A DNA stretch of 64,000 nt from an uncultured Caulobacterales bacterium (lineage in GTDB: Bacteria > Pseudomonadota > Alphaproteobacteria > Caulobacterales > Maricaulaceae): positions 434,001-498,000 of the forward strand of contig CALLIK010000007.1 in NCBI GenBank assembly GCA_938009235.1. Reading direction: 5' to 3'. Made by a program: the position numbers and the translations under genes. The notes beneath the pieces were generated by a model, which was not told where the DNA came from, ran no database searches, and saw nothing but the letters and a program-made list of their open reading frames with translations. This document shows, piece by piece, positions 54,678-63,982 of the stretch. Position 1 is the stretch's first letter. Each line of letters starts with the position of its first letter.

Positions 54678-56594
54678 ATGAATAAACGCGTTTCAATCGC
54701 CATCGCTTTGTTGACACTTGGCGGGCTCACGACAGGGTGTGCCACGTCGTCGTCTCAAGGCGTCAAAACCTCCGTGGTTGCGACATCTGTGCCGACGCAA
54801 GCATTACGTGCAGAGGTTCCCGATGGCGGCGTGCTTGCCGTTATTCGCTACCCTGCGATTGTCGAAGACGACGCGAAAGATACCTATCATCGCTCTTACG
54901 CCAGACGCGGCATTGGGGGACGGACAGGTGTAGGTGTCACAAATACAATTGAAACCGTCGCCGTCGCCGATAGCATCATTATCAAATCCAGTTATTTTGC
55001 GCTTTCGCTTTATAAAGAATTGGCCGCGCAATTACCTGAACACGCCGTTCTTTTGTCCCCGCACGTCATTAAATTAGGGCCAGGGAAACAATTGACCTCT
55101 GAGCCGATTACTGCAGCTGAAAATCTGCCCTCTGTCGTTTCGATTGACTTCGCGACATATAGTTTCCCAGATAGCCGCGAGATGATGGGGGATGTTCCCG
55201 TGACATTTGGGGATTTGGTGACTCCGTTGGTGACGGTTCGAACCGATCACCGCGCCTCTGCGCCGACGCAAGGCGTACTGCTTACAACGCGCCCACTCGC
55301 GACGCGGGCCGCCGCTGAGGGCCGTGATGTCGCGTTAGCAACAATCAAGTCTATGCAGTCTGGTGATTTGACCCCAGCTATTCCTGAATTGGACTTCATC
55401 TCATTTATCACTAATGATTCCCAACGCAGAGTTGCCGTACAGAAACTTGCTGAGCGCTCTGACCGCAATGCGACTTTGGTTTTGCCGCTAGAAAAAATTC
55501 GCATTCCAGAGCGCGAAATGGACCTCCTAAGAGGAGCAAGTGACGGCACCGTTGACCCAATTGACGACATCTACACCGAAGCCTTGTCTAGTCGTATCGT
55601 CGCGTTGATCAATAGTTTGGACATTGAGAAAGCGATCATGATGGGAAAGGCCTCTTCAGTCGCCCAATTTGACCCCAGCCTTGCCGCGCTGACATTTGTT
55701 GGCAGCGATGATCCTGATTACCTTGCCCGCGCTGCCTATGCGGACCGTCTTTTGGATACGCAACGTAAATTCCTCTCTGTGCAATCCTTGCGTATTTTTG
55801 ATGGAATTCACAACGGCGAACTTGGCGCGCAAGTACGCGATATGATCTCTGCTGAACACGACGTTCTGGAAAAGCGCCGCGCATTGGGCGGACAAAGTCG
55901 GTCAAGCAGTGCAAATAATTGCAACTCTGCGCGCAGCTCGCAGGAATATTTATCTTGCTTGAAGCGGCAAACTGGCACTGGGATAGGGTCAGTTTTCAAT
56001 CGTGCGCGATTATTGGCGAATGCGAGGGGCGACGCCAGAGCTCAACGTTCAGAGCAAGTCGGGACAAATTTTTTAAATGCGATTGTACCTGCGTTAGAGC
56101 AACAAACTACGGTAACGCTTGGCCTATTGGATTCTAACGAAACGATCACCGCCATTCGCTATGAAGATCTGCAGGCGAAATTGCAGGATCTCTACTCATC
56201 GCGTCAACGCTCGCTTGAGACGGTTGCAACTCAATGCGGATATATTGGTCAAGATGGAACCAAGCGCGGAACATGGATGGGTGTGTGTGATGAGGGTCTA
56301 GCAAATGGCTCTGGTGCGGGCGTCTTAAAAACCGACGTCGACCTGATGGAATATTATGGATATGCGCGTAACGGTCTAGCCGATGGGCTTGGACTTATGA
56401 TCCGTCACACCTCCATTGGCAGCATTTCTTATGAAGGCAGTTTCGAAAAAGGGCGTCCCCACGGTATTGTGCGCGTTTCTCAAGCGGGCCGCGCCGATCA
56501 AACGCGTACCTATGTTGACGGCATGGATCGCGGGGAGTCTAAACAAGCAGCGCCCTCTCCATTTGGTGGCAATGCGGATGAGGTGGTAGACTAA
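54678..56594 (+). CDS. Envelope lipoprotein with MORN-like C-terminus (first gene of vWA/MotA operon)
   Basis: 638 residues. The lipoprotein signal ends in LTTGC. The large mature part has no known domain through about residue 500; it has recurring helical stretches, and NCNSARSSQEYLSCLKRQTG contains a likely disulfide. Near the C-terminus, MORN-like repeats appear: GYIGQDGTKRGTWMGVCDEG, YYGYARNGLADGLGLMIRH and ISYEGSFEKGRPHGIVRVSQ. It is probably outer-membrane anchored and faces the periplasm. Its TAA overlaps the next ATG by one base. As first gene of the cluster it could be the outer membrane partner of the stator-like complex; that is inference. Confidence 0.75.
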   Translation: MNKRVSIAIALLTLGGLTTGCATSSSQGVKTSVVATSVPTQALRAEVPDGGVLAVIRYPAIVEDDAKDTYHRSYARRGIGGRTGVGVTNTIETVAVADSIIIKSSYFALSLYKELAAQLPEHAVLLSPHVIKLGPGKQLTSEPITAAENLPSVVSIDFATYSFPDSREMMGDVPVTFGDLVTPLVTVRTDHRASAPTQGVLLTTRPLATRAAAEGRDVALATIKSMQSGDLTPAIPELDFISFITNDSQRRVAVQKLAERSDRNATLVLPLEKIRIPEREMDLLRGASDGTVDPIDDIYTEALSSRIVALINSLDIEKAIMMGKASSVAQFDPSLAALTFVGSDDPDYLARAAYADRLLDTQRKFLSVQSLRIFDGIHNGELGAQVRDMISAEHDVLEKRRALGGQSRSSSANNCNSARSSQEYLSCLKRQTGTGIGSVFNRARLLANARGDARAQRSEQVGTNFLNAIVPALEQQTTVTLGLLDSNETITAIRYEDLQAKLQDLYSSRQRSLETVATQCGYIGQDGTKRGTWMGVCDEGLANGSGAGVLKTDVDLMEYYGYARNGLADGLGLMIRHTSIGSISYEGSFEKGRPHGIVRVSQAGRADQTRTYVDGMDRGESKQAAPSPFGGNADEVVD

Positions 56595-57409
56595 TGTTAC
56601 GCGCGTCTTTTATAATTCTCACTGCGGCTCTTTTGCTGCCAAACATTGCCTATGCCGATGAGACGATACCTCTGGTAAATCCCGTGGCTGTGTCGGCTTT
56701 GAACCAAGACCGCTGTATTTCACAAATGGCAGATTTTCCAACGGATGATCCAACGGCGCGATATCAGTTTTTCAAATTGGTTGGTGACGTTGCCTATGGC
56801 ATTGATAATCAGTCGCTTGAATTATTTGAGGCCTATGGTCAGCCCGCTGTTACGGAAGGCACACCCATTTTGACTGCGATCGAAGATATCGCAAACCCTG
56901 TCTTACGTATGGCTGCGCCAGAAATCATGGTGTCTAGCATGGCGTATATCGTGGATTTTGCGCAAAGTTGTGAAATTTACATTTTAGGCCAAACTGAAAG
57001 CTTAATCGCCTTTGATCCCACCTTAGGAGAGTCTGTTTTAAACACAGCTGTTGCGGAAGACGCCTTATTCCTACGCCAAATTTTATCTGAGAGTTTGCTA
57101 GGTCTTGGCGCAGAGCGCGATCCCGTGTGGGCCAGTGCCGCGCGTAATTATGGGGTAAGCCTCATTGCGCAACGCGATGCTGTAGAGTATTCGGCTTTTG
57201 ATAGCGAAATAGCGGAGTTGGAAACTCTCTTTATCGATGATCTAGATGGACGCCTTGCGCGCTCGAATGACGTCATTAATGCTGAAATTGATGACGAAAT
57301 ATTGAGAGAGGGCGTTCGTATCTCAAATGATATGACCGAAGCAGCTGAGAAGCAGGCGAAACAGCAGAGCCTCTCTCGTTTGATCAGTATCCTTCGCGGG
57401 GGGCGTTAG
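56594..57409 (+). CDS. Periplasmic hypothetical protein of the vWA/MotA operon
   Basis: 271 residues. A signal peptide (ASFIILTAALLLPNIAYA) is cleaved before DETIPL. The mature protein is mostly helical with two cysteines (DRCISQM and QSCEIY) that may pair, and a charged helical C-terminus (EAAEKQAKQQSLSRLI). No family recognised. It overlaps the MORN lipoprotein gene by one base, and its own stop is two bases from the proposed CTG start of the first vWA gene, so all three are translationally linked. Confidence 0.65.
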   Translation: MLRASFIILTAALLLPNIAYADETIPLVNPVAVSALNQDRCISQMADFPTDDPTARYQFFKLVGDVAYGIDNQSLELFEAYGQPAVTEGTPILTAIEDIANPVLRMAAPEIMVSSMAYIVDFAQSCEIYILGQTESLIAFDPTLGESVLNTAVAEDALFLRQILSESLLGLGAERDPVWASAARNYGVSLIAQRDAVEYSAFDSEIAELETLFIDDLDGRLARSNDVINAEIDDEILREGVRISNDMTEAAEKQAKQQSLSRLISILRGGR

Positions 57410-57411
57410 CT

Positions 57412-58365
57412 CTGAAGTCCCAACGGCGCAGCATAACAGTCTTTTCAATCTCGGCGCTCGACTTGTTCGCGGCGGCGCTGGGTGCGTTTATCTTGATCGT
57501 ACTTGTCTTGTTTCCCTATTATAAATTGGGCGGCACAGATGTGTCGATGGAAGAACTAGAGCAGGAAATGCGCAAACGTCGTTTCGCCGCTGAGACGACG
57601 CGTACGGACATGTCGCAAATTCGCGCGCTAGAAAGCGAAATTCGTTTCCTCGACAAAGAATATCTGACGAAACAAACTGAGATGAGCGAGACAGACGCCA
57701 AATTGGAAGAAGTCTTGAAAGCGATTACAGAAGTTGAAGCTCCCGATCCTGAGCCTCAACCAGAGCCTATTCCTGAGCCAACACCGACGCCGCGACCTGA
57801 GCCTCCTGAGCCTCCGCGGTCTATTAATCGCGGTGTGCCCTTTTCTATTTTGGGCCTCGCGACGGATAAGCGCGACGTCGTGGTTCTTGTCGATATGTCA
57901 GGCTCAATGCGGGAGCATAAGTCTAAAGTGACAGAGGCACTTTATGAAATTATCTCGCAAATGAAGCCTGACAATCGCTTCGCCATTATCGGCTATCGCG
58001 GTGGCCCAACCTATGACAGCTTCCCAAATAATGGGCGGTTAATCGCGGCGGATGACTATGCGCTCTCTGGCGCGAGGGATTTTGTAAAAGGTTTACCTAG
58101 TCGTTTTGGCGGCGGTACACCGACACAAGGCGCGTTAATTCGAACGCTCAATTTGAAACCTGAAGCTATTATCCTCATGAGTGACGGCGCGCCAGATGAT
58201 GGTAAACCTGGTGCCATTATTCGCAATATTACGAGCCGCAACAGGGGCCTTGCGGAAATCCATACGGTTGCGATTGGGAATTACACAGCAGATAAAAAAC
58301 TGACGATATTTCTGCAAGAACTCGCAAACCAAAATCGCGGTGAATTTGTGGGGCGTTCACGATGA
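57412..58365 (+). CDS. vWA protein with MotB/ExbD-like N-terminal helix (copy 1; CTG start proposed)
   Basis: About 317 residues. There is no ATG, GTG or TTG in frame between the upstream stop at 57346 and a TTG at 57463, which lies inside the membrane helix. A CTG at 57412, after GGGGGG, aligns with the start of the paralogue 58391-59386 and keeps the conserved VFSISALDLFAAALGAF. The helix (LFAAALGAFILIVLVLF) has an Asp (17 by this count) at its cytosolic edge, as in MotB/ExbD. A coiled coil (about 45-100) and a Pro/Glu-rich hinge follow; the vWA domain (about 125-315) has an intact MIDAS: DMSGSM, Thr in GGGTPTQGAL, and Asp in LMSDGAPDDG. Predicted periplasmic vWA. Start by TTG at 57463 (300 residues) is the alternative. 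Confidence 0.75.
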   Translation: MKSQRRSITVFSISALDLFAAALGAFILIVLVLFPYYKLGGTDVSMEELEQEMRKRRFAAETTRTDMSQIRALESEIRFLDKEYLTKQTEMSETDAKLEEVLKAITEVEAPDPEPQPEPIPEPTPTPRPEPPEPPRSINRGVPFSILGLATDKRDVVVLVDMSGSMREHKSKVTEALYEIISQMKPDNRFAIIGYRGGPTYDSFPNNGRLIAADDYALSGARDFVKGLPSRFGGGTPTQGALIRTLNLKPEAIILMSDGAPDDGKPGAIIRNITSRNRGLAEIHTVAIGNYTADKKLTIFLQELANQNRGEFVGRSR

Positions 58366-58390
58366 GCGTTATTGATATGAGGGCGGCGCG

Positions 58391-59386
58391 ATGAAGAGAC
58401 GTGCCAGCCGTGAAATCGAGGTCTTCTCGATGTCAGCCATTGACCTTTTTGCTGCGGCGATGGGGGCCTTTGCGTTGATTGCGATTATCCTACTGCCCTA
58501 TTATCAGAATGAACTGCGCGAGAAGACACCTGACAATGCCATTGCGCAATTGGCGCGCGCGGCTGAGGAAAGCTCTGTAGAAACGAAAGAGAAACAGAAA
58601 GCACTTGAAATTAAACGCTCCGCTATGGCGCGCAATGTGTCCGACGTGAAATCTGATGCGCAAGAGCTGTTGAATAAATTGCGGGCTGCCGAACAGACAC
58701 TCCTTGAAAAACAAGCCGCGCGAACACCACCGCCCGCCGTTGTTGTTCCTGAACCTATTGCAGAAGAGCCTGGCCCATTAGCCGAGCCCGCAACAGTGTC
58801 GTTCCGGTTCCTTGGCATGAACACGACGGCGGATGATGTTGTGGTCGCCATTGATATGAGCCGCTGTATGGGCGGGCATGAGGCGTCGATAAATAAATCC
58901 GTAGAGCGTGTCATTCTGTCGTTACAAGATAATCACGCCGTCAAAGTCGTGGGCTTCCAACAAACGGATGCAGGTCCGCGTCTAAGCGAATGGCCTGCGA
59001 GTGGCGGCTTACGCCAAATCAATGCGGGCGGCACCAAGACGGGGGCGATTGATTTTGCCAAAGGCCTCACGCGCCAATTCGGAGGCTCAGCGTCTATGCT
59101 CGATGCTTTTGATAAAATGTTGGCGGGACCCGGGGAGGCGATCTTCCTCATTAGTGATGGCTTGCCAAACCCGCGTGCAAATAATGGCCTCTCGCCAAAT
59201 CGCCTTATAGCCGCGATTACGGCACGCAACTCTGCCTTGGGTCGGGACCGCAAAGAAATTCACGCTGTCGTTGTCGGAAATTATTTCGACTATCGCGGCA
59301 CAGTCGATTTTATGGAAAACCTCGCGGAGAAGAACAATGGGCAATTTATGGCCTTGGCTTCGACATCCGCTGGCGTCTGTGATTAG
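58391..59386 (+). CDS. vWA protein with MotB/ExbD-like N-terminal helix (copy 2, MIDAS altered)
   Basis: 331 residues, paralogue of the preceding gene and 25 bases after it. The N-terminus is basic (MKRRASREIEVFSMSAIDLF) and leads into a helix FAAAMGAFALIAIILLPYY with Asp18 at its edge. A coiled coil covers about 45-105. The vWA domain is at about 138-328, but the MIDAS is changed: DMSRCM replaces DxSxS, and GGSASMLDAF lacks the usual Thr; ISDGLPNPR remains. Metal binding may be lost, giving an asymmetric pair with copy 1. Directly followed, after 11 bases, by the MotA/ExbB-type gene. Confidence 0.8.
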   Translation: MKRRASREIEVFSMSAIDLFAAAMGAFALIAIILLPYYQNELREKTPDNAIAQLARAAEESSVETKEKQKALEIKRSAMARNVSDVKSDAQELLNKLRAAEQTLLEKQAARTPPPAVVVPEPIAEEPGPLAEPATVSFRFLGMNTTADDVVVAIDMSRCMGGHEASINKSVERVILSLQDNHAVKVVGFQQTDAGPRLSEWPASGGLRQINAGGTKTGAIDFAKGLTRQFGGSASMLDAFDKMLAGPGEAIFLISDGLPNPRANNGLSPNRLIAAITARNSALGRDRKEIHAVVVGNYFDYRGTVDFMENLAEKNNGQFMALASTSAGVCD

Positions 59387-59397
59387 AAAGAAATGAT

Positions 59398-60189
59398 ATG
59401 AATAATTCGACCACTCTCTTCCGTAGGCTTTTTGTCTTTGCTGTCTCAATCGTTGGCGCACTCGTCACCATAGGGATTATTCGCGTGGCTGCGTCTGAAA
59501 ATCTCCAAGAAATTTTGTTAGATGCGGATGCTGATTTTTGGCCCTTCACGGTTCAAAACATTATGTGGGTCGCGCTGTTCATTGGTTTTGGCGAATTGTT
59601 CCTAAGATGGTCGACCGCCAGTGACGAGGAAAACCAGCTCAAACGCGCCTATCTGCCAACCGACGGACGTGCGCTGGATGCGGATACTTTGGCCCGCATT
59701 AAATCAGGTATAAGTGACCGTAAGTTTGGCCGTGATGCGTTCCTGCCGCGCATGATTTCTCGTACCATCGATCAATACCGCATGAGTGGAAATGAGGACC
59801 AAGCCATCAGTGTTTTGAACTCCTCACTAGAGCTTTATATGCATGAGATTGATCTCCGTTATTCCATGCTGCGTTATCTCACGTGGTTGATCCCGTCCCT
59901 TGGGTTTATTGGTACGGTGATGGGGATTATGTTCGCGCTTCAATATGCGGGCGTGCCTGCGAATGCCGAAGCGGATGATTTCCTCTACCAAGTGACCTCG
60001 CGTTTGGGCGTCGCCTTTACGACCACTCTCCTCGCCTTGATTATGTCGGCCGTGCTCGTTCTCGCGCAATCCCTTGTGCAGAGCAAAGAAGAGCGCGCGC
60101 TAAATGAAGCGGGCCAATATTGCCTGGACAATTTGATCTTGCGTTTGGGCAGTGGTCCTGACGCTACAACAACAAAGACATCAGCATGA
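59398..60189 (+). CDS. MotA/TolQ/ExbB proton-channel family protein
   Basis: 263 residues. Membrane helices: 9-30 (LFVFAVSIVGALVTIGI), about 50-70 (NIMWVALFIGFGELFL), 158-180 (LTWLIPSLGFIGTVMGIMFA) and 195-220 (LGVAFTTTLLALIMSAVLVL). The last two with GFIGTVMG and the Thr-rich GVAFTTTLLAL are the core of the MotA_ExbB family. The cytosolic loop between helices 2 and 3 is long, as in MotA. Family members form pentamers around two MotB/ExbD-type helices and use proton flow to do work. In this operon the only candidate partners are the two vWA proteins. Its stop overlaps the next ATG (ATGA). Confidence 0.9.
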   Translation: MNNSTTLFRRLFVFAVSIVGALVTIGIIRVAASENLQEILLDADADFWPFTVQNIMWVALFIGFGELFLRWSTASDEENQLKRAYLPTDGRALDADTLARIKSGISDRKFGRDAFLPRMISRTIDQYRMSGNEDQAISVLNSSLELYMHEIDLRYSMLRYLTWLIPSLGFIGTVMGIMFALQYAGVPANAEADDFLYQVTSRLGVAFTTTLLALIMSAVLVLAQSLVQSKEERALNEAGQYCLDNLILRLGSGPDATTTKTSA

Positions 60190-61754
60190 CAGACGAAAAT
60201 AACAACTGGCAAGCACCGCATGAACGCGATGACTTTTCTGTACGTGAAGAATCTGCACCAGTCCTGAAATGGACCGTCAGTTTTTTGGCGCTCTTTATCG
60301 TTGCAGGCGGAGCCATTTGGCTCGCGTCCAAAGTTGTGATCGCTGAGGATGTTCCGACGATTGAACGGGCCGAAAAGCCAGTTGAAATTGAAAAGCCTCA
60401 AGCGCCGAAATCTGCCGATGATTTGGCATGGGTGAAGGCTTTGGAAGCTGACACCGTCGAAGGCTACCGCGCCTATCTCGCGGCGTTTCCGAAGGGGCGC
60501 CACATTGAAGACGCGCAACGTTTGCTCAATGAATTTGACGAAGCGGCATGGACACTTGCCGATGAGCGCGACACGATTGAAGGCTATGAGGATTACCTCG
60601 AGAGTTGGCCTGAAGGTCTGCACGCCACCGAAGCGCGAGATCGTATAGCTAAGAAAAAAGCAGAAGAAGAAGCCCGCCGTAAAAATGCCGAAGAAGCGGC
60701 GCGTCAAGAAGCTGCCGCGTGGAAAGCTGCGGCTGAAACGAATAGCATTCCCTCCTATGAAGGCTATCTCACGAAATTCCCTGCAGGTAAAAATGCGCCT
60801 GAAGCGCAACTCCGTATTGAACGTATTCGGGCCGAAGACGCGCGCAAAAAGGCCTCCGTTGCCGATGAAGCGGCATGGACCGCCGCAGACGCCTCAGGCA
60901 CAGCCGAAGCCTATCAGCAATATCTCACGAGCTTTCCGCAAGGCGCACATGTGCCCGAAGCCATCGCAAAAATTGAAGAATTACGCCCTGGGCCTGGGAA
61001 GACATTTAAAGACTGCGAGACTTGCCCGACAATGATGACATTGCCTGCGGGGACTGCGGAACTTGGCGCATTAGACGCGGACGATAAAGCCAACCCGAAT
61101 GAAAAACCTGCGCGACCTGTGACCTTTACAAACATTTTTGCGATTGGCGTTAATGAAGTGACCTTCGCGGAATATGGTGCCTGCGTCAGTGCAGGCGGTT
61201 GTAAATCCATGCCGTCGGATAATGGTTGGGGGCAAGGCACGCGCCCTGTGATTAACGTTAGTTGGTCAGATGCGGTTGCCTATGCGCAATGGCTGTCGAC
61301 TACGTCTGGGAAAAACTATGGGCTGCCCTCTGGCGCGCAGTGGGAATATGCGGCACGCGGCGGCGATACGGGTGTCTATGCGGGTGGGTCTGTTGAAGCG
61401 CTTTGTGCTTTTGCCAATGGCGCAGCTAATGAATCCCAACTGCCGTGGGCGAATGACGCTTGTACCGATTTGGCGGGTGATCGCACATTGCCTGCGGGGT
61501 CATTGTCCAAGAATAAGTTTGGCGTGGCCGATATGCAGGGCAATGTCAGCGAATGGGTTTTGGACTGTAATACTCTAAACCTACGCGACGCGCCCGTTGA
61601 CGGGTCTGCGGATGCGCGGGGGTCATGCTCGCAGCGTATTGTGCGCGGCGGCTCTTGGTTCTCTGGTCCTGATGATTTGCGTTATTCTTCACGTGCGGTG
61701 CAACGCCGCGGGGACAGGAATGACTTTACAGGGTTTCGCGTGATTAGGCATTAG
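60186..61754 (+). CDS. Membrane-anchored SUMF1-fold protein with four repeats, non-catalytic
   Basis: 522 residues. A single helix (LKWTVSFLALFIVAGGAIWL) near residue 30 places the bulk in the periplasm. Four repeats of about 37-45 residues lie at roughly 80-262, each with a pattern W-x2-A-x4-T-x2-Y-x2-YL-x2-FP-x-G and A-x2-R/K-I (for example EGYRAYLAAFPKGRH). A SUMF1/formylglycine-type domain follows (about 280-520; FAIGVNEVTFAEYGACVSAG, LPSGAQWEYAARGGD, GVADMQGNVSEWVLD, IVRGGSWFSGPDDLRYSSRA). The two copper-binding cysteines of true formylglycine-generating enzymes should follow RGGSW and are missing here, so a binding rather than catalytic role is likely. Confidence 0.85.
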   Translation: MTDENNNWQAPHERDDFSVREESAPVLKWTVSFLALFIVAGGAIWLASKVVIAEDVPTIERAEKPVEIEKPQAPKSADDLAWVKALEADTVEGYRAYLAAFPKGRHIEDAQRLLNEFDEAAWTLADERDTIEGYEDYLESWPEGLHATEARDRIAKKKAEEEARRKNAEEAARQEAAAWKAAAETNSIPSYEGYLTKFPAGKNAPEAQLRIERIRAEDARKKASVADEAAWTAADASGTAEAYQQYLTSFPQGAHVPEAIAKIEELRPGPGKTFKDCETCPTMMTLPAGTAELGALDADDKANPNEKPARPVTFTNIFAIGVNEVTFAEYGACVSAGGCKSMPSDNGWGQGTRPVINVSWSDAVAYAQWLSTTSGKNYGLPSGAQWEYAARGGDTGVYAGGSVEALCAFANGAANESQLPWANDACTDLAGDRTLPAGSLSKNKFGVADMQGNVSEWVLDCNTLNLRDAPVDGSADARGSCSQRIVRGGSWFSGPDDLRYSSRAVQRRGDRNDFTGFRVIRH

Positions 61755-61813
61755 GCCGATCACATAACCATGTATTCATCCCGCTCTCAGTCACTTCGTG
61801 TTATAGCCAATCC

Positions 61814-62995
61814 ATGATTATACGTACTCTAACAGTTTCCCTTCTTTTTGCCGTCTTGGCTGTGCCTGCCTATGCGCAGGACGCAAGCCAAGATTCAGGT
61901 CAAGTGACAGGGCAAGATTCGGAACAAATTTCGACAGTGCCGTCGAACTTAGACACGCGCCAAACCGATGATTCAGAGGATTATTATCGTCGCTCCCAAC
62001 GCCGTCGTGATACAGGCGATATCTTTGACGATATCGACATTATCACGAGTAGTCGGGGTGGCGGCGGAAATGTTGTTGGCCGTGAGGTCAAAGCGATTGA
62101 CCGTTTGGATCAAGAGTCCCGCCGTCATTTGAACCGTCTACGCGCAAAAGCGATGACCAAAGCGGAGCCAGGTGAGCCTCTTGAGGCCGAGTATGAGCCG
62201 TCAGAGGCTGCGAAAACCTATGATTATGTTGAAGTCCAAGAAAAGGCTGCGTGGGAAGATATGCTTAAGGAGGCCAATAGCGATTTCAATGGCGTGATCC
62301 AAATCGGCGCTGGCGGTCAAGGTGAACAAGGACAAGAAGGCCAACCGAGTAGTTCACCCTTACGTGGTGGATCGGCCTCCTCGGCTTCGGATATTTTAGA
62401 CCAAATCAAAGGCCGCAATAGCAGCGCTGGCGAGTCATCGGGTCAAGGTGAAACTGGCCAAGACGAGGCAGGACAAGGCGAAGCAGGACAAACTCAATCC
62501 GAGCAGGGCGAAGCAGAGCAAGGCTCAGAAGGTCAAGCTTCAGCTGAGCACCCTTCTGGCGAGCAAGGTCAAGCATCGCAGGAGCAAACTGAAGAAGGGG
62601 ATAACCAATCCCAACAAGATCAAGACGGTGAGGCTGAAGCTCAAAGCGAAGTCAAAGCCCAAAGTGAAGCCCAGGCTAAGGCTGATAGTGAATCAGAAGG
62701 CGAAGCTCAAAGCCAATCACAAGATCAAGCGCAAAGCGAGACCCAAGCTAAAGCTGATGCGAGTGCCGCATCAGAAGCCGAATCTCAAGAAAGCGCTGAT
62801 GCCGAAGCGGCTGCTGAGGCTGAGGCTGAGGCTGAGGCTGAGGCTGAGGCTGAGGTATCTAAAGCGGCCGCCAAAGCTGCCACGCATAATGAAACCATTA
62901 GCCCGTTAGAGCGCCTCAAACGCGACCCTCTGGACCGCGATGATACAGGTGGACGGACAAGTGCGTCTGATTATCTGAATCGGAAGAAGAATTAG
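61814..62995 (+). CDS. Secreted Gln/Glu/Ala/Ser-rich low-complexity protein
   Basis: 393 residues with signal peptide (IRTLTVSLLFAVLAVPAYA, cleaved before QDAS). Residues 45-165 are a charged, structured-looking part (YYRRSQRRRDTGDIFDDIDI, VKAIDRLDQESRRHLNRLRA). Residues 170-350 are highly biased: repeats of EQGQ, GQDEAGQGEAGQ, EAQSE and a final run of Ala-Glu pairs from seven GCTGAG units. The end is charged (LERLKRDPLDRDDTGG). It ends the operon and may be a flexible periplasmic spacer or a surface polymer-like protein. The repeat tracts may vary in length between strains. Confidence 0.7.
   Translation: MIIRTLTVSLLFAVLAVPAYAQDASQDSGQVTGQDSEQISTVPSNLDTRQTDDSEDYYRRSQRRRDTGDIFDDIDIITSSRGGGGNVVGREVKAIDRLDQESRRHLNRLRAKAMTKAEPGEPLEAEYEPSEAAKTYDYVEVQEKAAWEDMLKEANSDFNGVIQIGAGGQGEQGQEGQPSSSPLRGGSASSASDILDQIKGRNSSAGESSGQGETGQDEAGQGEAGQTQSEQGEAEQGSEGQASAEHPSGEQGQASQEQTEEGDNQSQQDQDGEAEAQSEVKAQSEAQAKADSESEGEAQSQSQDQAQSETQAKADASAASEAESQESADAEAAAEAEAEAEAEAEAEVSKAAAKAATHNETISPLERLKRDPLDRDDTGGRTSASDYLNRKKN
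62813..62854 (+). repeat. Seven tandem GCTGAG hexamers
   Basis: An uninterrupted in-frame run of (GCTGAG)7 coding alternating Ala-Glu near the end of the low-complexity protein. Each unit is six bases, so slippage would change length without breaking the frame. Confidence 0.9.
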
Positions 62996-63082: not shown

Positions 63083-63982
63083 ATGACGGCAACGAATATT
63101 CGTGGACAAAAAGTTTTTTTGCCAGCAACCCGCCAACCTATACTTTACAAGTATTTTGCGCCACCAGCAGGCTCCGAGACTTACGCAGAAGCCAATTTGG
63201 AAAATTTGTTAATACAAAACCAGGTTAGGTTATCTAGTAATGCGGAGGTTAATGATCCTGCTGATATGTCACCTTATATTGATCATGACCATACTCAACA
63301 AGACGTAGAAAATTATTTCAAGCGTATGATTAACACTCCTTTCGATGACCCAGATGCTGAGGCGCAGAGATTGGAATTAAGAAAGCAAACGGTTAATCGC
63401 GCAGGTAGGAAAATATATGCTAGAGATCACGGTCAAACTCATGCCCGAGTTGCAATTGATGCCGCCCAGAGAAACTTTTTAGGCACAGGTTTTACTTGCA
63501 TGACAGAAGAGTGGTCCAATCGGTTAATGTGGTCACATTACGGACAGTCACACAAAGGTATTTGCGTAGGGTTTAGGACACGCCCAAATATAGGCGAGGC
63601 AGTATTACCTTTTGCTGCAAATTTTTTGGAAGTAAAATATATCTCTGATCGACCTGTTTGGAGCATCAAGGCTATGATGTCTGGAAATCAACAGGCAGAT
63701 GTAATCACCCAAACTTTTTTCCGCAAAGACAAGGTTTGGGAATATGAAAAAGAATGGCGTTATACTTCGCCAATTGACGATGGTGCCAAGATATCAAATG
63801 GTGGAGACATAATTAAAATCGGGTCTAATGAGATCGTAGAAATCGTCTTTGGTATGCGTGTCAGTAAAAAATCAAGGATAAGTATTACGGACATGATCAG
63901 TCGCTCTGGTAAGTCACCGCTGATGTACGATACAAAATTTGCGGAGAAGTCTTTTGAACTGGTAAGGACTTTGAACCGTTAA
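63083..63982 (+). CDS. DUF2971 family protein
   Basis: 299 residues from the ATG at 63083 (MTATNIRGQKVFLPATR), preceded by GAAGAAG; an earlier in-frame codon at 63056 would add nine residues. DUF2971 features: PILYKYFAPPAG at the start, VRLSSNAEVNDPADMSPYID, CMTEEWSNRLMWSHYGQSHK and GICVGFRT, ending with FRKDKVWEYEKEWRY. The family is cytosolic and uncharacterised and often occurs near defence genes or in islands. AT-richer than the operon to its left. The last 18 bases of the window after its stop begin a GC-rich stretch that may be its terminator. Confidence 0.85.
   Translation: MTATNIRGQKVFLPATRQPILYKYFAPPAGSETYAEANLENLLIQNQVRLSSNAEVNDPADMSPYIDHDHTQQDVENYFKRMINTPFDDPDAEAQRLELRKQTVNRAGRKIYARDHGQTHARVAIDAAQRNFLGTGFTCMTEEWSNRLMWSHYGQSHKGICVGFRTRPNIGEAVLPFAANFLEVKYISDRPVWSIKAMMSGNQQADVITQTFFRKDKVWEYEKEWRYTSPIDDGAKISNGGDIIKIGSNEIVEIVFGMRVSKKSRISITDMISRSGKSPLMYDTKFAEKSFELVRTLNR

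Follow-up and report, generated by a model that had tools for sequence, protein, structure and literature searches.

Proton motors of the 5:2 class drive flagella, gliding, the type IX secretion system (T9SS), Ton, Tol and Zorya. A 64,000-nucleotide stretch of DNA from an uncultured Caulobacterales bacterium (contig CALLIK010000007.1; hereafter the window, part of a 2.79-Mb assembly in 16 contigs) carries an operon that raises the question of whether such a motor can use von Willebrand factor A (vWA) proteins as the partner of its channel and, if so, what it would drive. The operon consists of seven open reading frames (ORFs) on the plus strand at 54678-62995, with neighbours that overlap or are separated by no more than 59 bp. 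They encode, in order, a MORN-type lipoprotein (g1), a secreted protein (g2), two vWA proteins (vWA1, g3; vWA2, g4), a MotA/TolQ/ExbB-type channel (g5), a membrane-anchored protein with the fold of formylglycine-generating enzyme (FGE)/SUMF1 (g6) and a secreted low-complexity protein (g7). An earlier note on this DNA, made from the letters alone, had listed the same seven proteins, and each ORF was found at the place and on the strand that it gave. The note had gone on to propose that the vWA proteins take the place of a MotB/ExbD-type partner, and that no described system has this combination of genes; the first of these ideas was supported and the second was not.

Both vWA proteins have an N-terminal helix with a conserved aspartate

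vWA1 (57412-58365) matches the Pfam family VWA_3 (E 1.3e-12) and is built of one N-terminal helix, a coil and Pro-rich linker, and a vWA domain with a complete metal ion-dependent adhesion site (MIDAS; DMSGS...T...SDG). vWA2 (58391-59386) gives only sub-threshold Pfam matches (VWA_2, E 0.04); it can be aligned to vWA1 over its full length, and profile comparison links it to other vWA proteins. It has the same helix and Asp as vWA1, together with a conserved Cys near its C-terminus. The helix sequences singled out in the earlier note, SALDLFAAALGAF and SAIDLFAAAMGAF, are both found in the window; the aspartates are Asp17 of vWA1 (codon 57460-57462) and Asp18 of vWA2 (codon 58442-58444).

The first ATG, GTG or TTG codon of vWA1 is the TTG at 57463, immediately after the Asp codon, and a start there would remove the helix Asp from the protein. 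At the position of the CTG at 57412, 15 orthologous loci have ATG (eight), CTG (four), TTG (two) or GTG (one). Because the orthologues have start-type codons at this site, and because the stretch before the Asp is conserved, the CTG at 57412 is very likely the true start of vWA1. Gene callers restricted to ATG, GTG and TTG would drop the Asp from vWA1.

We scored the Asp column over 128 hits to the vWA profile, using a pattern open to any residue at that position. The pattern found Asp in 126 of the 128 ORFs; of the remaining two, one (L154) has the Asp by eye and the other (L081) is cut by the end of its contig, which leaves Asp present in 127 of 127 readable vWA ORFs. The helix region around the Asp has a mean column identity of 71% (alignment A3), as against 57% for the whole proteins (alignment A2). 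On the channel side, g5 (59398-60189; 263 amino acids; PF01618, MotA_ExbB, E 1.7e-11) has Thr173 and Thr210 in its two C-terminal hydrophobic segments; each of these is invariant among the channels whose sequence extends to it (80 and 79 of 82). A comparison of the channel profile with PDB sequences gave nothing at E ≤ 0.01. Pfam and NCBIfam models for ExbD, TolR, MotB and OmpA had no match among ten window proteins, namely the seven of the operon and three neighbours.

The conserved Asp, the conserved channel Thr residues and the linkage of the genes, documented below, support a role for the vWA proteins as the axle of a 5:2 motor, as does the absence of an ExbD, TolR, MotB or OmpA match among the proteins scanned. 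The earlier note had named an unconserved Asp and vWA and channel genes that are usually unlinked as outcomes that would count against its proposal; both were looked for, and neither occurred. We consider it likely, from sequence comparison, that the operon encodes a proton-driven 5:2 motor in which a vWA axle acts on a load in the envelope, and that this motor derives from a kinase-controlled version.

A putative motor with an asymmetric axle

We infer the following arrangement. Five copies of g5 would form a ring in the membrane, and the pore of the ring would hold the N-terminal helices of one vWA1 and one vWA2, a putative heterodimer. Protonation of the two Asp residues would cause the helices to turn or rock against the Thr residues of the ring, and the vWA heads, which would lie in the periplasm on their coil and Pro-rich linkers, would pull or turn an envelope load. 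This load would most likely be the FGE-fold protein g6, together with the lipoprotein g1 and the helical protein g2.

The heads themselves differ. The MIDAS is complete in all ten aligned vWA1 sequences; in vWA2 it is degenerate in all nine aligned, with a Cys replacing a Ser (DM[SN][RK]C). These counts refer to the aligned sequences, since a pattern run over all relatives left many unread and was not used. Because the metal site of vWA1 is full and that of vWA2 is broken, the axle would be asymmetric, and the full site of vWA1 may serve ligand binding. We have met no earlier description of this asymmetry. If the proposal is correct, a branch of motors with a ligand-binding vWA axle would constitute a new route from proton flow to work on the cell envelope.

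A fixed unit of six genes in close relatives

In a survey of 60 genomes, some of them incomplete assemblies, the channel gene was found in 12 of 17 genomes of the same genus, 3 of 18 others of the same family and none of 24 others of the same order (16 of 60 with the window's own). The nearest named relative of the window in trees is Litorimonas cladophorae (Robiginitomaculaceae). The operon is present in L. cladophorae KCTC 23968 and in Algimonas arctica KCTC 32513, and these named strains make deletion and Asp-mutation tests feasible.

A scan of named genomes with the channel alignment yielded 71 loci, 36 of them close (L046-L080 and L085) and 35 distant. The channel and both vWA genes are present in 36 of the 36 close loci. 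The other genes of the first six are nearly as constant (g1 in 34, g2 in 35 and g6 in 35), and every miss is a contig that ends at that point. We conclude that the first six genes are a fixed unit, since they are missing only at contig ends. The secreted low-complexity protein g7 (61814-62995) is the loosest member of the set: it was found in 30 of the 36 loci, and in some of them, such as L055, it is displaced by kilobases. Five of its misses are contigs that end first; in L063 there is room for the gene and no match. Conservation of gene order and of sequence in the relatives argues that the operon is more than a chance arrangement. A constant neighbourhood was considered and rejected: the DnaJ/BolA flank of the window recurs in 6 of the 36 close loci.

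The candidate load: g6 and the envelope proteins

The membrane-anchored protein g6 (60186-61754) matches FGE-sulfatase (E 2.5e-46). It has a hydrophobic segment at 24-54, four repeats, as counted in the earlier note, of the form Y..YL..[FW]P.G, and an FGE/SUMF1-fold domain at about 61023-61748. The catalytic Cys pair of FGE lies in the stretch after GGSW/GSNW. That stretch contains no Cys in g6, in 31 FGE sequences of the close family or in seven of a second, diverged operon described below. We rejected a role for g6 as a formylglycine-generating enzyme for lack of the catalytic Cys pair, and for the same reason the FGE domain is likely to be a structural scaffold or binding domain rather than an enzyme. 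Among sequence matches g6 finds PorK (E 8e-11), although its best match is PvdO and not GldK. Two PDB entries with kinase names, 7spq and 5nxl, also match g6, in each case over the FGE region. The protein looks like a receptor without its kinase.

The other three proteins, g1, g2 and g7, have no family match in Pfam. The 638-amino-acid g1 (54678-56594) has a lipobox (TGC), an alpha/beta N-terminal part, a helical middle and a C-terminal MORN-type beta domain (about 56220-56567). Its predicted model (mean predicted local distance difference test score, pLDDT, 79.8) matches MORN4 (6jle_A; Z 10.7, root-mean-square deviation 2.8, 104 aligned), and a profile search likewise finds MORN4 (E 2.5e-4), in agreement with the MORN-type lipoprotein of the earlier note. 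The N-terminal part of g1 gave no clear structure match, the hit lists being filled by MORN and long-helix entries. The 271-amino-acid g2 (56594-57409) is predicted to be all-helical (model mean pLDDT 87.2), and a fold search found no PDB match at E ≤ 0.001.

A second operon of similar make-up elsewhere in the Pseudomonadota

We searched 397 genomes of the phylum with profiles of the helix. A narrow profile gave nine matches and a broad one 16, with the window's genome in both. Besides the window genome, the broad profile has strong matches (E 1.7e-14 or better) in ten genomes, which belong to five families, all outside the window's class. All ten loci have a channel and two vWA genes. In nine of the ten these are joined by genes for a membrane-anchored FGE protein, a lipoprotein, a TPR protein and a secreted protein; the tenth is a 6.2-kb contig. 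The FGE protein carries PEGA domains in both second-operon loci scanned with Pfam (L120 and L122). Profile comparison with hhalign linked the channel (98.9%), the vWA proteins (95.6-98.8%) and the FGE domain (99.5%) of the one operon to those of the other.

The remaining five of the 16 broad matches, at E 2.5e-5 to 0.009, are marginal. All but one of them (G205, left out of this check) were rejected as other proteins, with no match to either of two channel profiles in about 20 kb. One marginal match, L157:8998-9753, has a DLMAGALGAF helix followed by a domain that looks OmpA-type by eye, a MotB/ZorB-like arrangement.

Phosphorylation genes accompany distant relatives of the motor

Among the 35 distant channel loci, 28 have an Asp-helix vWA gene, 27 an FHA gene, 16 a Ser/Thr kinase gene and 12 a PP2C gene. 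L089, from Aliiglaciecola lipolytica, is an example with FHA, kinase and PP2C together. The counts come from home-made profiles seeded from the same loci; Pfam confirms the domains of all the seeds but one, an FHA. One kinase mark, that of L081, has no support from Pfam, which finds no kinase there. A profile of g6 marked an FGE domain in seven of the 35; in four of these (L093, L094 and L096, with repeats and FHA, and L104, with a kinase and a beta helix) Pfam finds no FGE. Kinase-FGE fusions occur in L091 and L097 and in one close locus, L077, where the genes run g1, g2, vWA, vWA, FHA, channel, kinase-FGE fusion, PP2C and g7. The g6 of the window is 55% identical to the L077 fusion over 513 columns; the alignment begins immediately ahead of the membrane segment, runs to the C-terminus and leaves only the kinase uncovered. 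A tree of five proteins (38 rows), with L081 as its root, places L077 as sister to the rest, with a value of 96 in the Shimodaira-Hasegawa-like approximate likelihood ratio test (a quick method).

These relatives suggest how the motor may have arisen. In the ancestral operon g6 would have been a transmembrane Ser/Thr kinase, with FHA and PP2C proteins gating the motor; the window's lineage would have lost control by phosphorylation and retained the mechanics. A single loss of phosphorylation control is the simplest reading. Kinases with PG_binding_1 domains stand beside distant motors in L097 (15638-18733, also with FGE) and in L104 (4367-7294 and 7323-9869, with a beta helix in that locus), a hint that the ancestral receptor sensed the cell wall.

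The same genes bear on an alternative in which the complex is a sensor rather than a machine: the channel and vWA pair would report the proton motive force or the state of the envelope, the FGE protein would be the receptor and, in the relatives, the kinase would be the output. The FHA, kinase and PP2C genes of the distant loci, the three kinase-FGE fusions and the peptidoglycan-binding domains of the kinases in L097 and L104 are consistent with this. However, L077 is alone among the 36 close loci in having a kinase, FHA or PP2C gene, none being found in the DNA examined around the other 35. In the window genome itself neither FHA nor PP2C gave a match, and a single kinase-like match fell below the cutoff, yet the channel and both vWA proteins remain highly conserved. 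We regard the sensor as unlikely.

Several observations weigh against the motor proposal, or against parts of it. Seven of the 35 distant loci have no Asp-helix vWA gene; in four of these the contig stops no more than about 4.4 kb downstream, whereas L102, L104 and L116 have room for one. Only five of the 28 vWA-bearing distant loci have two vWA genes, and since most have one, a heterodimer is not general. Pfam confirms an FGE domain in three of the 35 (L081, L091 and L097). The basal place of L077 comes from a quick tree in which long branches meet, and from one metagenome bin; a tree of the channel alone, built from 50 of the 82 channels with near-copies and short ones left out, puts L077 beside L073 with no firm support. 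Lastly, g1, g2 and g7 show no convincing homology to the lipoprotein, secreted and TPR proteins of the second operon; the best such pair, g1 and the lipoprotein, gives E 0.006 over 33 columns with a probability of 6.1. For this reason the likeness of the load between the two operons is, on this evidence, one of kind.

Relation to described motors

Among the papers examined in our full-text literature searches, only PMC12204202 (Williams-Jones et al. 2025) describes vWA pairs of this type, and it is here that the earlier note's claim of no described system fails. In section 8 and the legend of Fig. 4c-d, that paper presents paired Asp-helix (TPH) vWA proteins as the predicted dimeric partner of TolQ-like pentamers, with heterologous vWA pairs that go with a TolQ-like gene and lack TolR; in its AlphaFold 3 model the Asp faces a ring of Thr. 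The window agrees with these TPH-vWA pairs, which are from Proteobacteria, in every feature compared: vWA genes adjacent to the channel gene, two different Asp-helix proteins, a conserved Asp, and no TolR, ExbD or MotB in the locus. The idea of a vWA axle is thus right in substance and already predicted in print. The main text of that paper, as distinct from supplements and figures, contains no mention of SUMF1, FGE, formylglycine, MORN, kinase, phosphatase or forkhead.

Section 8 also proposes another family, of side-binding vWA proteins. If the window proteins were of this kind, they would act as TolA/TonB-like transducers on the flank of the motor, and a separate TolR/ExbD-type protein would fill the pore. 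The window genome does have three further MotA_ExbB matches outside the operon. But no TolR, ExbD or MotB match was found among the ten window proteins, the helix Asp is conserved, and the SHLS motif of that family is missing, as read by eye, from the window helices; we consider side binding very improbable here. Zorya-like anti-phage defence is no more credible: it would fit weak ZorA profile matches of the channel (best E 6.1e-4), the patchy presence seen in the genome survey and the DUF2971 gene immediately downstream of the operon (63083-63982), which gives E 7.4e-37 against PDC-S31, a candidate defence family, but the other nine proteins in a PADLOC scan of ten match no Zorya model (ZorB, ZorC, ZorD and ZorE included), a lipoprotein and a signal-peptide protein accompany the operon wherever the contig reaches, and the PDC-S31 gene turned up nowhere in the DNA examined of the 36 close loci.

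A motor with a vWA axle would share with ExbB-ExbD, TolQ-TolR and MotA-MotB the channel family, the helix Asp and the channel Thr, and with ZorA-ZorB the channel family. It differs from the first three in that the partner domain is vWA and not of the TolR/ExbD or OmpA type. A further likeness is to GldK-GldL-GldM-GldN (PorKLMN) of the T9SS and gliding, which also combine a 5:2-class motor with a periplasmic protein of the FGE fold. GldK/PorK, a sequence match of g6, is a part of the moving track in both (PMC12635249). Unlike that system, the ten window proteins have no NCBIfam GldM or GldN match, and unlike the lipoprotein GldK, g6 has a membrane helix. The resemblance is one of function and does not make the operon a member of that system. 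Ser/Thr receptor kinases with an FGE domain resemble the fusions in L077, L091 and L097, whereas g6 of the window has no kinase and is encoded with a motor.

The full-text searches returned no account of an FGE partner beside the motor, and at the level of titles and abstracts no link of FHA, PP2C or kinase to such a motor is described. Term look-ups found no mention of vWA in the mBio 2025 MotAB survey (PMC12505986), and none of MotA, TolQ or ExbB in an eLife 2020 paper (PMC7159879). Apparently new, in that we did not find them in print, are the six-gene unit, the second operon with its FGE protein, lipoprotein and secreted protein, and the link to FHA, kinase and PP2C. More tentatively, and as a claim that we hold to be somewhat doubtful, the operon may represent a class of trans-envelope machine not described before. 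In it a proton motor would turn an asymmetric vWA axle and so act on a scaffold of the FGE fold; most of its distant relatives would switch the motor by Ser/Thr phosphorylation (through a receptor kinase, which in some has an FGE sensor, an FHA reader and a PP2C eraser), and one family of marine bacteria would have shed this switch and kept the machine. Both the phosphorylation genes of the relatives and the FGE-fold proteins of two diverged operons would then tie into this branch of motors.

Other features of the loci

Promoter and terminator scans of the operon gave nothing above the level given by shuffled sequences. In six Gemmatimonadota loci (L100, L103 and L105-L108) a single vWA gene lies on the strand opposite to the channel gene, and the home-made profiles detected no FHA, no kinase and no PP2C there. 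A small extra ORF with hydrophobic stretches lies between the channel and FGE genes in L046 (9783-10274), L051 (7705-8223) and L048 (9755-10261). Finally, a trypsin-like protease with a C-terminal FHA domain is encoded in two of the distant loci, L089 (11305-12864, where the protease match is sub-threshold) and L091 (14982-16316).

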